Of a DNA stretch of 54,173 nt, positions 32,014-51,482 are shown piece by piece (the stretch's first letter is position 1; the number at the start of each line of letters is the position of its first letter). The position numbers and the translations under genes were made by a program. Source of the DNA: a virus. The stretch is from the IMG/VR virus record IMGVR_UViG_3300033153_007345, positions 1 through 54,173 of that record; one strand, written 5' to 3'. Under the pieces are notes generated by a model. That model was not told the DNA's origin. It made no database searches and saw nothing but the letters and a program-made list of their open reading frames with translations.

Positions 32014-33561
32014 TCAACACCCTAAATTATTAAGTCTTTTGCTTAAGTTGTCCAAGCTTTTCTGAGCACGGGCTATTGTCTTATCTGAAACCGGCTCATC
32101 TTCTTCGCTATTTTCAACTTTTTCAGACTCATTATCTTCACTATCTGTGGATAATGTATCATTTTTTTGGCCCATGTCTGCAATTATTTGTGACAGCTTC
32201 TGTATCTCACCAATCAATACACCCATCATCACATTTGTCTGCTTCTGAGCCTCTAAAAATGGACTACCAAAGTTATCCTCATCAGGAGCCGTTTTTATAG
32301 GGACTGTTACCCCATCATCGCCCTCCTGCTCAGCTTGCTTAACTTCAGTAGCATCTACGTTAAGTGTAACAGCTTCTTGAAGTTTTGAAAAATCCCACTC
32401 GCCAGTCTCTTTGAAAGCCTCCATAGCATCAAAACATACTGAGAACACCTCACTCTTAGATTCTGGGGATAGTGTACACTTCCCGCTTTCCTGGCATTCG
32501 CTTACAGCAACGGCTACAGCCTGGTCTTGCTCCATTCCCTCGTTTACTAATGCAGGGACTTTGGAAGATACGCAGTCCTCAAAATCCTGCTTGGTAGAGT
32601 CTACGTCGTCTTCGTCTTCGTCGTCCTCTGACTCTTCTGACTTTTTGTCAGGATCCTCCTCGTCTTCTTCTTTATCGTCTCCTGCATCTTCTCCTTCTTC
32701 ATCTTCTCCGTCTTTGCCCTTTTCTTCTTTATCGTCTTCGTCTTCTGGGCTTTCGTCATCTTCGTCTTTGGGCTCTTCATCTGCTTTTTCTTCATTCTTA
32801 CCCTCGTCCTTGAAAATAGCAGCTACAGCAGCCTTGAAATCGTCAGTGGGCTCTACGTTGCCCGCCAGGATGTCCTTAACCTCATCATTGGTGATACTAG
32901 CAGCCTCTGCCAGCATCTCGGTAAGATCCAGTCTGTCCTGTCCCTGAGCTTCTAGCATGTGAATTTGCTCATGGGTCTTCTGTGCAAACTCTGCGCCCTT
33001 CTGCTCAAGAACTTCCTTCTTGATCTCGTAGAGAGACTTTGTGGTCAAGGATTTCTCAGAAACAGTGAACAGAGAGTCCTGGTTCATTGGGACGCCCACA
33101 ATGGATACTTCAAACAGCTCGGCTTTAGTAATCCGGGTTATTTCCTTTACGTCCTCCCCCTCACCAATCTGAGATTTCTCAGTCTCCTTTGGGTCAAATC
33201 CCACAGAAAAAGCCTGGAGGATTTTCTCTTCCACCAGGTCTCGTACCATTCGAATACCGGGGGCCTCTGAATTAGATAGTCGGACCTTAAGAAAGAGCCC
33301 TTCGTCAGTCTCCTTGACCTGGGTAGCAGTACCCACTGGCGTACCGCCAAGAGTATCGAAGCCATGGTTGAACAAAATAACCGGGTTCTTTTTGAAATTG
33401 TCAAGCTCCCAGGCATTTGTTGCGATGATCTCATCACCTCGGTCAAGAGTAGCCTTGTTTGCGAACCCCTCAATGAAAGTGGCCCCACCCTTTTGCTTGA
33501 TGCTAAAGGTGTCCATAGAGGCCAGCTTCTTCACTACTTTGTTGTTCCGCTTCACATCCAT
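32014..33561 (-). CDS. Prohead protease with acidic scaffold extension (515 aa)
   Basis: Residues about 20-185 are a U35/HK97-type prohead serine protease: GFANKATLDRGDEII, then FNHGFD with the catalytic His near 66 and an AFSVGFDP motif with the Ser near 118. A helical segment is followed by a very acidic Glu/Asp/Lys stretch (about 245-325), then a Cys-bounded DFEDCVSSKVPALVNEGMEQ...AVSECQE motif seen in other phage proteases, and a coiled-coil tail. The fused region probably works as internal scaffold and is degraded during maturation. Confidence 0.88.
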   Translation of the reverse strand: MDVKRNNKVVKKLASMDTFSIKQKGGATFIEGFANKATLDRGDEIIATNAWELDNFKKNPVILFNHGFDTLGGTPVGTATQVKETDEGLFLKVRLSNSEAPGIRMVRDLVEEKILQAFSVGFDPKETEKSQIGEGEDVKEITRITKAELFEVSIVGVPMNQDSLFTVSEKSLTTKSLYEIKKEVLEQKGAEFAQKTHEQIHMLEAQGQDRLDLTEMLAEAASITNDEVKDILAGNVEPTDDFKAAVAAIFKDEGKNEEKADEEPKDEDDESPEDEDDKEEKGKDGEDEEGEDAGDDKEEDEEDPDKKSEESEDDEDEDDVDSTKQDFEDCVSSKVPALVNEGMEQDQAVAVAVSECQESGKCTLSPESKSEVFSVCFDAMEAFKETGEWDFSKLQEAVTLNVDATEVKQAEQEGDDGVTVPIKTAPDEDNFGSPFLEAQKQTNVMMGVLIGEIQKLSQIIADMGQKNDTLSTDSEDNESEKVENSEEDEPVSDKTIARAQKSLDNLSKRLNNLGC

Positions 33562-43523: not shown

Positions 43524-43771
43524 TTAGTAGAGATAGGCTAGAAAGTATTGATGAGACTATGCGTCGGTACGCTAGCCACAATCATTATGACGTGCATATC
43601 TTGCTTGCGATAGTCAAAGACCTATTGGCCGAGCGCCGGGGGTTGATAGATAGAGGAGATGGGTTCAAAAAGTCATCCGCAACATGGCAGAGCAATTACC
43701 AGAAGCTAAAAAATATGGTTGAACAGCATATTGAAAAGGGTAAGGGCGAGATGATGGAGCAAGGAAAATGA
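43520..43771 (+). CDS. Hypothetical helical protein (83 aa)
   Basis: No family is recognised. Starts MISRDRLESIDETMRRYASH and is helical throughout (LLAIVKDLLAERRGLIDRG). It resembles the preceding protein in layout (MIS-R-I/LESIDE-M and LLAER). It is coupled by ATGA to both neighbours, including the SNF2 helicase gene downstream. Confidence 0.65.
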   Translation: MISRDRLESIDETMRRYASHNHYDVHILLAIVKDLLAERRGLIDRGDGFKKSSATWQSNYQKLKNMVEQHIEKGKGEMMEQGK

Positions 43772-46035
43772 AATACCTCGTAACCCCATGGGCACACCAG
43801 CTGAAGTCAATAGAGAAGGCAGCTACCATGCCTAACTATGCGCTGTTTTTTGAAATGGGGTGCCTGTCCAGAGACACTAAAATAAAAGCAAATATTAATG
43901 GATGCTCCAGAGAGTACACCATTGAAGAGTTCTACAGGAAATGGAATAAAGTTGAGCTTAGCGAAAGAGAGAACGGGTTTTCGGGAGTTGCTAGAATCAG
44001 AGCATGGAAAGAAGACCATGTAGGGCTGCATAAAATAGTGGGCGTTATAAGGTCAGGCGAGAAAGAAGTATATGCATTAAAAGTTAAAGGACAACCTAGG
44101 CTTAAGCTAACAAAGGATCATCGTATCCTCACAAAAAGAGGATGGGTTGAGGCGGGGGATCTGCTTGAGGATGACCAGATAGCTTGTGATAGAACAACCA
44201 AGCACCAAAAAAAGAAAACCAAGGTTCAGGGGAGAAAACCTAGATACAACTACCTTCAAATAGGCAAACACCACCCCTATGGGCACAACACCACGGGTTA
44301 TAAAGGTAAGTCCATACGCAGAATCGAGAAGCACAGAGCCATATATGAAGCCAATCTAAATAAGAAAACTTTAGTGGAGTTTCAAGAAGCTACAAAAAAC
44401 AAACTAGCAGCTAGTAAACTGGAGTTTGTAGACCCAGGTAAATATCATATCCACCATGTTGACCATGACCACAAGAATAATGACGTAAGCAACCTTGCAA
44501 AACTATCAGCTAAAGATCATTTGTCCATGCACAGCAAGGGTTATGTAAATTTCTCCCATGGTACATTAAGCTGGGCACGTATGGAGTCTTTCAAAAAAGT
44601 AGGCGTAGAAATGACCTACGATATATCGTGCGCTTCTCCTTACCATAATTTTGTGGCTAATGGAATTGTAGTTCACAACTGTGGCAAGACGGCTACTGCC
44701 ATCAACATACTGAGGAAGAAGTACTACGAGCATGGCCGCATCCTAAGAACCCTGGTGCTATGCCCACCCGTCGTTAGGACAAACTGGAAGCGTGAGTTTG
44801 CCATGCACGCATCGGGTAAGGTAGCAAAGCACAGCGTGGTACTAGAGGGCAGCGGAGTGAAGCGAGCAGCTACTTTTGACAAGCATGCATTCAGTCCACT
44901 GGAGGGCAAGTTGAATGCGATATTTATTACCAACTACGAATCCCTGACCATGGAAAAACTGTGGCGGCTTCTGAAGCTATGGGGACCGGAGGCGATTGTA
45001 TTCGATGAGTCACACAAGCTCAAAAATTATAAGACCAAACGTACCAAGTTGGCGACGGAGCTCGCGGATCAAGCAGCGTGTAAGCTCATCCTTACGGGGA
45101 CACCCATACTCAACAGCCCTATGGATATTTGGAGCCAGTATCGTATTCTCGATGGTGGTGAAACATTTGACCGCAACTTCTTCGCCTTCCGAGCCAGGTA
45201 CTTCGTAGACAGAAACGCCGGGATGCCAAAACAGAAGTACTTCCCTGACTGGCGTCCAATTCAAGGGCTCGGCGGGATACTCCACGCCAAGATCTATAAG
45301 AAGGCTGCTCGGGTACTCAAGAGCGAGTGCCTAGACCTCCCTCCGCTTGTCAGAAAGCGTATCGAGGTGGAGATGTCAGCCGACCAGAAGAAGCTCTATA
45401 CGGACATGGCTAAGAGCTACATCGCCTATCTGAATGACAAGGCATGCGTTGCCACTATCGCTCTGACTCGGGGCCTCCGTCTCCAGCAGATAATCAGTGG
45501 GTTCTTCGTTGACGATGAGGACAATACCCATGAATTCAGAAGTAACCAACGGCTGGATACCCTCATCGACCTGGTGGAGCAACTCGTTGACGAGCATAAG
45601 ATAATCATTTGGGCGTCGTTCAAAGTGAATTACACACAGATCGCCGCCAAACTCAAGGCCCTTTTTGAAAAAAATAGAAAGACCTATGAGATATGCCAGC
45701 TGACTGGTGGGATGACAGACAAAGCCAGGCAGACATCCATCGACAAATTCCAAGAAGACCACACCCATAGGGTCATGATCGCAAATCAACAAGCAGGTGG
45801 GGTAGGCGTGAATCTGACAGCTGCTAGCTACGCGCTGTATTACTCCAGGTCTTTTTCTTTGGAGGCTGACCTTCAGTCTGAGGCACGTAATCATAGAGGG
45901 GGCAGTCAGCAGCACAAGTCTATTACCAGAGTAGACCTGGTGGTCAAAGATACTATAGACGATGTGATTCTGGGGGCTCTTGCTCGGAAAGAGAACCTCG
46001 CCAACGACATACTGAGACTGAGGGAGTTACTGTAG
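43768..46035 (+). CDS. SNF2-type DEAD/H helicase with an intein in the Walker A loop (755 aa; 482 aa mature)
   Basis: After removal of the intein (32-304) the protein is an SF2 Swi2/Snf2-like ATPase: EMG-CGKTATAI Walker A, VFDESHKLKN (DEAH-type, about 411), LTGTPILNSP, and C-terminal IIWASF, QQAGGVGVNLTAA and a QSEARNHRGGS motif VI-like region. Such phage enzymes translocate on DNA and may act in recombination or replication restart. ATPase activity needs splicing because the intein divides the P-loop. It is ATGA-coupled to the preceding gene. Confidence 0.9.
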   Translation: MKYLVTPWAHQLKSIEKAATMPNYALFFEMGCLSRDTKIKANINGCSREYTIEEFYRKWNKVELSERENGFSGVARIRAWKEDHVGLHKIVGVIRSGEKEVYALKVKGQPRLKLTKDHRILTKRGWVEAGDLLEDDQIACDRTTKHQKKKTKVQGRKPRYNYLQIGKHHPYGHNTTGYKGKSIRRIEKHRAIYEANLNKKTLVEFQEATKNKLAASKLEFVDPGKYHIHHVDHDHKNNDVSNLAKLSAKDHLSMHSKGYVNFSHGTLSWARMESFKKVGVEMTYDISCASPYHNFVANGIVVHNCGKTATAINILRKKYYEHGRILRTLVLCPPVVRTNWKREFAMHASGKVAKHSVVLEGSGVKRAATFDKHAFSPLEGKLNAIFITNYESLTMEKLWRLLKLWGPEAIVFDESHKLKNYKTKRTKLATELADQAACKLILTGTPILNSPMDIWSQYRILDGGETFDRNFFAFRARYFVDRNAGMPKQKYFPDWRPIQGLGGILHAKIYKKAARVLKSECLDLPPLVRKRIEVEMSADQKKLYTDMAKSYIAYLNDKACVATIALTRGLRLQQIISGFFVDDEDNTHEFRSNQRLDTLIDLVEQLVDEHKIIIWASFKVNYTQIAAKLKALFEKNRKTYEICQLTGGMTDKARQTSIDKFQEDHTHRVMIANQQAGGVGVNLTAASYALYYSRSFSLEADLQSEARNHRGGSQQHKSITRVDLVVKDTIDDVILGALARKENLANDILRLRELL
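43861..44679 (+). mobile_element. Intein with HNH homing endonuclease domain (273 aa), within the helicase gene
   Basis: The intein begins with Cys32 (CLSRDTKI) and ends VVHN before extein Cys305. I see the N-terminal splicing block, a block B-like LKLTKDHRILTKRGW (TxxH), and C-terminal MTYDISCASPYHNFVANGIVVHN. Between them lies an HNH-type endonuclease (IHHVDHDHKNNDVSNLAKLS, about residues 226-245) with a KHRAIYE helix. All key splicing residues look intact, so it should be active both as intein and homing element. Confidence 0.92.
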
Positions 46036-50384: not shown

Positions 50385-50582
50385 GCAGCTGGGAGCGATG
50401 TGGGAAGCTGGGCGGCCCTCTCTGCGATGGCCTTAATCACAGACTAGCCCTGGAGACACACAGGAAGACCCGTAGGTTAGCCTTAATTGTCTAGATCGGA
50501 TGAATAGACGGGGGTAAACCGATCATGGCCCTGGTCGCGTGGGGCCTCCCAGTAGAACAAAACAACAATTAAAGGAATTGAA
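50385..50582 (+). other. Non-coding 198-bp stretch
   Basis: No plausible gene. It is GC-richer than its surroundings and holds short inverted repeats such as GATCGG/CCGATC (about 50494 and 50518) and GGGCGGCCC. It ends in the 20-bp repeat found again at 51339. A structured 5' leader or small RNA is possible; no known RNA family is recognised. Confidence 0.4.
50549..50568 (+). repeat. 20-bp direct repeat, copy 1
   Basis: CCAGTAGAACAAAACAACAA is identical to 51339-51358. Both copies lie just before the ribosome site of a gene and bracket the 50583 gene plus the hexanucleotide arrays. Confidence 0.9.
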
Positions 50583-50897
50583 ATGCAGTTATCGTTAAAA
50601 GATTTGAAAGAACTATTTGGCAGCTCAGAAGAGCCACACCCGTACAAAATTGGAGAGAAGTACTTAGTTAGAACTATCACTATGATTTACACTGGCAGGC
50701 TAAAGGCTGTGTATAAGCAAGAGCTAGTACTTGAAGATGTGGCTTGGGTAGCAGAAACATCTAGATGGGCAGAATGCTTGAAGAATGGGGATATGGAAGA
50801 GATAGAACCGTACCCCACTGGTGAGGTTATTATCGGAAGAGGAGCTATTTTAGATGTTCCTGTCTGGGCTCATGATTTGCTGAGAGAACAGAAGTGA
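50583..50897 (+). CDS. Conserved phage protein next to a simple-repeat array (104 aa)
   Basis: A beta-rich protein with KIGEKYLVRTITMIYTGRLK, LVLEDVAWVAETSRWAECLK, and GEVIIGRGAILDVPVW. I believe similar proteins occur in other phages and prophage-like elements, often beside genes of simple dipeptide repeats, but no function is known to me. AAAGG precedes the ATG. Its stop overlaps the GTG start of the first repeat frame (GTGA). Confidence 0.65.
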   Translation: MQLSLKDLKELFGSSEEPHPYKIGEKYLVRTITMIYTGRLKAVYKQELVLEDVAWVAETSRWAECLKNGDMEEIEPYPTGEVIIGRGAILDVPVWAHDLLREQK

Positions 50898-51088
50898 ATC
50901 AAGCATTAATGAGTGAATCGTGGTCTAGGTCTTGGTCTTGGTCTGTGTCTGTGTCTAGGTCTAGGTCTAGGTTTTGGTCTAGGTCTAGGTCTAGGTCTAG
51001 GTCTAGGTCTGGGTCTAGGTCTTGGTCTAGGTCTAGGTCTGGGTCTAGGTCTTGGTCTGGGTCTTGGTCTAGGAGTAAATGTATATGA
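50894..51088 (+). CDS. Ser-[Arg/Trp/Gly] repeat protein 1, candidate (64 aa)
   Basis: Read in this frame the array encodes a leader MNQALMSES then (Ser-Arg/Trp/Gly/Val/Phe) dipeptides, ending SKCI. It starts at GTG overlapping the preceding stop and its own stop overlaps the ATG of the second repeat frame, the coupling style of this operon. Two other plus-strand frames are also open (Gly-Leu repeats from 50913). Whether any is translated is uncertain. An Arg/Ser-rich chain would be disordered and could bind nucleic acid. Confidence 0.4.
   Translation: MNQALMSESWSRSWSWSVSVSRSRSRFWSRSRSRSRSRSGSRSWSRSRSGSRSWSGSWSRSKCI
50921..51073 (+). repeat. GGTCTN hexanucleotide array 1
   Basis: About 25 tandem GGTCTN units with N = A, T or G, never C, plus a few variants (TGTCTG, GGTTTT). 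The leader sequence 50895-50932 is repeated at 51086-51123. The plus strand has a GG tract every 6 bases, which could form two-tetrad G-quadruplexes. Confidence 0.97.
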
Positions 51089-51345
51089 ATCAAGCATTAA
51101 TGAGTGAATCGTGGTCTAGGTCTAGGTCTAGGTCTTGGTCTAGGTCTAGGTCTAGGTCTGGGTCTAGGTCTTGGTCTTGTTCTGGGTCTTGGTCTTGTTC
51201 TGGGTCTAGGTCTTGGTCTGGGTCTAGGTCTGGGTCTAGGTCTAGGTCTAGGTCTGGGTCTAGGTCTAGGTCTAGGTCTTGGTCTTGGTCTTGGTCTGGG
51301 TCTTGGTCTGGGTCTAGGTCTGGGTCTAGGTCTAGGAACCAGTAG
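51085..51345 (+). CDS. Ser-[Arg/Trp/Gly] repeat protein 2, candidate (86 aa)
   Basis: A second copy of the repeat frame with the same leader MNQALMSES, then Ser-Arg/Trp/Gly/Cys dipeptides, ending SRSRNQ. The ATG has an AGGAG site 9 bases upstream and overlaps the stop of the first copy (ATGA), which favours this frame. A Gly-Leu frame (51104-51379) also stays open. The array is longer than copy 1, consistent with unit expansion by slippage. Not a confirmed gene. Confidence 0.4.
   Translation: MNQALMSESWSRSRSRSWSRSRSRSGSRSWSCSGSWSCSGSRSWSGSRSGSRSRSRSGSRSRSRSWSWSWSGSWSGSRSGSRSRNQ
51112..51336 (+). repeat. GGTCTN hexanucleotide array 2
   Basis: About 37 tandem GGTCTN units, with TGTTCT variants in the middle. 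N is again A, T or G only. Together with array 1 it makes about 380 bp of near-perfect hexanucleotide repeat, very unusual for a compact phage genome. Confidence 0.97.
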
Positions 51346-51358
51346 AACAAAACAACAA
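51339..51358 (+). repeat. 20-bp direct repeat, copy 2
   Basis: Exact copy of 50549-50568, directly after the second array and before the next ribosome site. Confidence 0.9.
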
Positions 51359-51371
51359 GGAGAACAGAGTA

Positions 51372-51482
51372 ATGATTAGCATAACCACACTAGTATTTTT
51401 TTGTATTGCTGCGTGTAGTTTTGGGTTTGCTGGAGGAATTAAGTACACACAAAAGATATACGGCAGGAGGATCAGTAAGTGA
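51372..51482 (+). CDS. Small membrane protein (36 aa)
   Basis: A single N-terminal membrane span (ISITTLVFFCIAACSFGFAG) and a short basic tail (KYTQKIYGRRISK), so it should sit in the inner membrane with the tail inside. AAGGAGAACAGAGTA precedes the ATG. Its stop overlaps the GTG start of the exonuclease gene (GTGA). Confidence 0.55.
   Translation: MISITTLVFFCIAACSFGFAGGIKYTQKIYGRRISK

Follow-up and report, generated by a model that had tools for sequence, protein, structure and literature searches.

What does a tandem array of GGTCTN hexanucleotides do in the genome of a tailed phage? The array lies in the window analyzed here, a single virus record from IMG/VR, 54,173 bases long, whose genes are those of a tailed phage (terminase, portal, tape-measure protein, primase, helicase, RNase_T exonuclease and family A DNA polymerase). 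The first-pass annotation had left three answers side by side, namely a translated, disordered RS-like protein, a structural or protein-binding DNA or RNA element, and a locus made variable by slippage. Here, we report on this locus and on its counterparts in other viral contigs.

Layout and reading frame of the array

TRF found one period-6 array in the window, on the plus strand at 50922-51336 (68.3 copies, 80% matches, consensus GGTCTA). We counted 57 exact GGTCTN units in it, which can equally be written TCT-NGG, with N being A in 31, T in 15, G in 11 and C in none; the earlier estimate of about 62 units was close, and the restriction of N to A, T or G was accurate. Three plus-strand genes follow one another here. 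The first (50583-50897, 104 aa), hereafter the partner gene, belongs to a family without a name and encodes a predicted Sm/LSm-like beta-barrel. Ser-X gene 1 (50894-51088, 64 aa) begins with a GTG in a GTGA overlap with the partner stop (50894-50897), and its product reads VNQALMSESW(SX)n, X being Arg, Trp or Gly, with SRSKCI at the C-terminal end. Ser-X gene 2 (51085-51345, 86 aa) encodes MNQALMSESW followed by Ser-X dipeptides and begins with an ATG in an ATGA overlap with the gene 1 stop (51085-51088), 9 nt downstream of a Shine-Dalgarno-like AGGAG recognized from the sequence (51071-51075, plus strand), and an in-frame ATG at 51079 is a possible alternative start. The duplicated 38-bp leader described at first reading is an exact plus-strand repeat (50895-50932 and 51086-51123) comprising the upstream stop, the leader MNQALMSES and the first repeat unit. 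Each copy begins at the TGA that ends the gene before it, and the duplicated unit is therefore an entire small gene that shares bases between its start codon and the upstream stop.

The Ser-X, Gly-Leu and minus-strand Arg-Pro frames listed in the first-pass annotation are indeed all open, but openness says little in this case, since a stop codon cannot arise from GGT CTN or from AGA CCN. Besides the window, more than 120 IMG/VR contigs contain GGTCTN x5, and GGTCTN arrays in the IMG/VR loci mostly lie in short Ser-X-frame ORFs opening with a short leader. Across the loci selected by the partner gene, the frame entered from the coupled start codon always reads Ser-(Arg/Trp/Gly). Since the serine codon differs between phages, the other plus-strand frame is inconstant, reading Gly-Leu, Gly-Arg, Gly-Ala or Gly-Gln/His, and the residues of the Arg-Pro frame likewise shift with the serine codon of each phage. 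The Gly-Leu and Arg-Pro frames were therefore rejected as products, and the suggested RS-like protein stood, with Ser-X as the only frame constant across phages. Translational coupling, also suggested earlier, is borne out by the four-base overlaps at both Ser-X starts and by the relatives, in which the offset of the Ser-X start from the partner stop is most commonly −1 (NTGA overlap; 65 of 113), with +2 in 17 of 113. The leader has the consensus MN[AQ]A[IVL]LR[TA]G[FYW]D and is followed by 25-40 Ser-X dipeptides. Frame and translation signals are thus evident from comparison of the loci, on which basis the array codes for protein solely in the Ser-X frame and makes up two genes. Some phages carry many tandem Ser-X copies (L010, L024, L091 and L121); in L010 (on the minus strand), L024 and L121, a single stretch contains as many as roughly 15 Ser-X genes in tandem, each with a copy of the leader.

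A 20-bp direct repeat, CCAGTAGAACAAAACAACAA, flanks the module on the plus strand. Its first copy (50549-50568) is just 5′ of the partner gene and its second (51339-51358) overlaps the end of Ser-X gene 2 and precedes the next gene start; exactly two copies occur in the window, with 0 expected, and the whole module lies between them. The two copies may represent a 5′ leader used in common or a trace of recombination. A cassette bounded by direct repeats does hold for the window, but elsewhere a 15-mer is shared across the module in only 6 of 92 modules, 2 of those 6 being repeat-derived, and a mobile cassette was rejected as a general candidate. A 36-aa ORF (51372-51482) that separates the module from the exonuclease gene contains a hydrophobic segment and has no family match. 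Two further features of the window were recorded: degenerate 15- to 24-bp TCGTCTTCTTC-like repeats at 32660-32782, within a head-protein ORF on the minus strand (32014-33561), and HNH endonuclease family matches at residues 223-266 of the helicase ORF (43768-46035, 755 aa), ahead of the main helicase match, which possibly mark an intein or homing element.

The partner gene family and its predicted fold

Profile searches found 370 relatives of the partner protein in IMG/VR and 14 in genome_contigs, the latter all on contigs labelled as MAG contigs. At 68 of the 77 partner-profile loci with at least 250 nt of downstream sequence, a Ser-X gene, detected by a simple alternation score, directly follows the partner gene, whereas control windows in the same loci gave 8 of 222; a recognizable Ser-X gene was absent at 9 of the 77. 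The first-pass annotation had placed the gene at 50583 often beside simple-repeat genes in other phages, and these counts support it. The reverse also holds. Among 74 loci with Arg/Trp/Gly arrays chosen by the repeat alone, an iterated profile placed a member of the partner family on the same strand within 259 nt upstream in 53, and several of the others are cut upstream by the contig end; the sets of 74 and 77 both include some related phages. With tblastn, 22 repeat-chosen loci contained a relative of the partner protein, leaving out L129, a 23rd row fetched via the partner protein itself. As a control pattern, Ala, Pro or Thr codons before NGG yielded 120 loci and 48 arrays of 10 or more units, of which 2 had the Arg/Trp/Gly mix, and the partner was present at 1 locus. 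In INPHARED (50,697 records), one record was retrieved per subfamily query, both from Manatee Spring viromes and both with a Ser-X gene 3′ of the partner gene. MW202573 and MW202825, two circular and complete virome genomes, carry the module. At the level of gene order, these comparisons show a near-constant partnership between the two families. Around the module, we found no third conserved neighbor, the adjacent genes being diverse early or replication genes.

The partner family consists of two mutually homologous subfamilies (hhalign probability 96, E 1e-9). Neither had a meaningful match in Pfam or PHROGs; searches of NCBIfam and PDB sequences with subfamily I and of PADLOC with three members gave no match. 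AlphaFold2 models of the two reached pLDDT 92 (the subfamily of the window protein) and 91, and the PDB matches listed by Foldseek for both were nearly all Sm/LSm chains, with probability 1.00, TMt up to 0.83 and modest E-values (5e-4 to 1e-3). Both subfamilies are thus predicted to adopt an Sm/LSm-like fold, with an N-terminal helix and a bent five-stranded barrel. Two strings in the right order, TGrLxxVxxxELVLEDA resembling the Sm1 motif and VIVGRGAIID the Sm2 motif of Sm/LSm/Hfq proteins (PF01423), were recognized by eye and carry no statistical support. Profiles gave no link: none of the 107 + 29 partner members matched Pfam LSM (PF01423), and hhalign against collected archaeal LSm sequences scored 14.9, below the reversed control of 16.1. 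Since the profile comparison does not exceed its control, membership among Sm proteins is a statement about predicted fold.

The partner tree shows a single change of leader type (MNAAILRTGFD-like or basic), whereas 26.7 changes would be expected if labels were shuffled. This single deep split demonstrates co-inheritance of leader and partner and only suggests contact between them; the link could reflect shared ancestry instead of docking.

Composition, codon use and turnover

If the peptide is what matters, how freely does the DNA beneath it vary? The serine codon of the arrays differs among phages (TCT, TCG, AGC, TCA or AGT) while the peptide pattern is kept, and the trinucleotides before NGG are almost all Ser codons, from both codon families (TCN and AGY). 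On the partner tree, we counted 31 changes of serine codon and 13 switches between TCN and AGY, the latter about as frequent as with shuffled labels, and the Ser-X pattern persists through them. Codon choice follows the flanking GC content, with a mean of 0.418 for arrays using the Arg codon AGG and 0.529 for those using CGG (p = 7e-9), and a corresponding separation of A/T-ending from G/C-ending Ser codons (p = 1e-9). These comparisons show a pattern that is independent of the codons that write it.

The alphabet of N is almost always three letters, A, G and T or C, G and T. The absence of C from N in the window is most simply read as the use of one Arg codon per array, because CGG is merely synonymous with AGG. 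Avoidance of the BsaI/Eco31I site (GGTCTC) was considered and rejected: many arrays with other serine codons also use three letters, and 22 GGTCTN arrays have C, G and T but no A. Over the family, Arg:Trp:Gly is.346:.328:.326, close to 1:1:1, in an order close to random in very different phages, and the minor Arg codon makes up 2.3% of Arg. Amino-acid types are therefore mixed within arrays, whereas synonymous variants are not.

Single-change variants of the Ser codon comprised 17 synonymous and 129 nonsynonymous cases, where about 32% synonymous would be expected (p = 8e-9), and the nonsynonymous excess also appeared within the partner-selected set alone (p = 4e-3). Inside arrays, synonymous changes were the rarest kind. 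The comparisons show a strong excess of amino-acid-changing variants, which is not proof of positive selection. Identical X residues stood next to each other a little less often than shuffling would give (z = −3.6), whereas single-unit slippage should leave the reverse. Loci with 97-100% identical upstream flanks had clearly different arrays (L068/L121, L031/L043 and L187/L198), showing rapid turnover at the level of aligned loci, as the proposal of a rapidly variable locus had anticipated. We read these observations as fast turnover of units under selection that keeps the composition mixed and diverse.

Candidate functions and related systems

Sm-type barrels bind RNA, and Arg and Trp with Ser and Gly spacers form the composition of a sticker-spacer polymer. 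With moderate confidence, we propose that the locus encodes a two-component module made of an Sm-like partner and a translationally coupled, disordered sticker-spacer protein, Ser-X. Component 1 (50583-50897) would be a small Sm-like nucleic-acid-binding beta-barrel, judging by its predicted fold. Component 2, doubled here (50894-51088 and 51085-51345), would be a coupled leader plus Ser-X protein, intrinsically disordered by composition, in which Arg and Trp may act as cation-pi and nucleic-acid stickers and Ser and Gly as spacers. The leader may dock on the Sm-like partner. During infection, the pair may build an assembly or condensate that binds RNA or DNA; we infer both nucleic-acid binding and phase separation from composition only. 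On this reading composition, length and leader alone would matter, leaving the array free to gain, lose or reorder units in frame-keeping 6-nt steps. More tentatively, and with somewhat less than even confidence, we suggest that the module represents an as yet unnamed, globally widespread class of phage ribonucleoprotein module, in which an Sm-like protein is accompanied by a separate, coupled, hypervariable Ser-Arg/Trp/Gly polymer selected for composition and diversity and not for order.

Turnover of this kind would also suit a host-facing factor, with Ser-X as a diversifying decoy or inhibitor of host defence or a host regulator, the barrel as its chaperone or co-factor, and an arms race as the source of diversity. 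The predominance of nonsynonymous variants, the differing arrays of near-identical phages and the early or replication genes nearby are all consistent with such a role. That dissimilar phages keep nearly equal shares of Arg, Trp and Gly in a near-random order suggests one general physical property and not a specific target, and PADLOC, a library of defence and not of counter-defence, gave no match; we consider this explanation unlikely. Less probable still, Ser-X, rich in Arg and Trp, could act on membranes or be toxic in host takeover or lysis, with the barrel as antidote or regulator. Trp and Arg contents are very high (in Ser-X gene 2, 18 Arg and 9 Trp per 85 counted residues), and the small coupled pair recalls toxin-antitoxin operons, but strict Ser alternation gives a hydrophilic chain with no transmembrane segment, a lysis gene is not a consistent neighbor, and L010, L024 and L121 carry the gene in many copies.

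A DNA or RNA element (a G-quadruplex, hairpin, or protein-binding or recombination site), with translation incidental, is very unlikely, even though GG recurs every 6 nt in all codon classes and the window array RNA is predicted to fold better than shuffled versions (z = −12). The remaining bases vary with the serine codon; phages do not share a GGTCT core; predicted RNA folding spans −0.45 to 0.00 kcal/mol per nt among codon classes, and the order of N gives no folding gain. This variation by codon class and the irrelevance of N order disfavor structure as the function, and such an element would leave the start-codon overlap, the leader peptides and the tracking of GC by codons unexplained. 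A neutral microsatellite expansion or assembly artefact has a negligible chance of being correct: the repeat is slippage-prone and hard to assemble, with contig ends piling up as expected if arrays break assemblies (17 of 94 relatives within 250 nt 3′ of the partner gene, 3 just 5′ of it), but arrays are tied to one gene family with balanced Arg, Trp and Gly, avoid identical neighbors, occur in circular complete genomes and recur, as pairs of identical composition, in records of different metagenomes (L031/L075), which together with the other viral contigs carrying GGTCTN x5 answers the artefact concern raised at the outset.

The proposed module of Sm-like partner and Ser-X polymer can be compared with three known systems besides the Sm/LSm proteins. 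Eukaryotic RNA-binding proteins carry SR and RGG low-complexity domains, and SmB, D1 and D3 have RG tails. Ser-X has in common with these domains Ser-Arg dipeptides, Arg and aromatic stickers and Gly/Ser spacers, but differs in its strict Ser alternation, in having Trp at one third of X positions, and in standing alone without an RRM, for which neither window protein tested had a Pfam match. Diversity-generating retroelements combine a reverse transcriptase with template and variable repeats; Ser-X variation is similarly focused on one codon position but arises through unit shuffling in arrays, and no reverse transcriptase was found among the part of the window ORFs that was scanned. The closest parallel is the Sm ribonucleoproteins of Borgs, extrachromosomal elements in which Sm proteins carry fast-evolving tandem-repeat disordered regions; in 5 of 19 proteins, units of 4-17 residues make up the N-terminal stretch of the Sm chain itself (PMC9879509). 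Common to both are an Sm-type protein, predicted in the phages, and a fast-evolving, in-frame, disordered tandem repeat, the 6-nt Ser-X unit being a multiple of 3 and rapidly evolving. The phage repeat differs in its dipeptide unit and in forming a separate coupled gene (in the 68 of 77 cases above); no fused partner-Ser-X ORF was found.

The pair was not found in open-access PMC papers on phage simple-repeat proteins or phage condensates, or in family libraries. It apparently constitutes an undescribed, widespread and very fast-evolving two-gene viral system, carried by hundreds of viral contigs although both members are missing from Pfam, PHROGs, NCBIfam, PADLOC and, by sequence, the PDB. 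Standard pipelines can overlook such a module, because its arrays disrupt assembly, the gene is hidden by low-complexity masking and a trypsin digest would leave only tiny peptides of the product. If the proposed reading holds, phages may deploy Sm-like RNA machinery of their own, and Ser-X would be a natural minimal sticker-spacer polymer that asks what selection preserves in disordered proteins; it would offer a clean system for studying selection on disorder, since composition is conserved while order is free. At one locus (L264, 11425-11912), a partner-family gene is followed by a GCT-NGG array, giving Ala-X with an Arg/Trp/Gly-type mix in place of Ser-X, a variant that would mean that Ser is replaceable.
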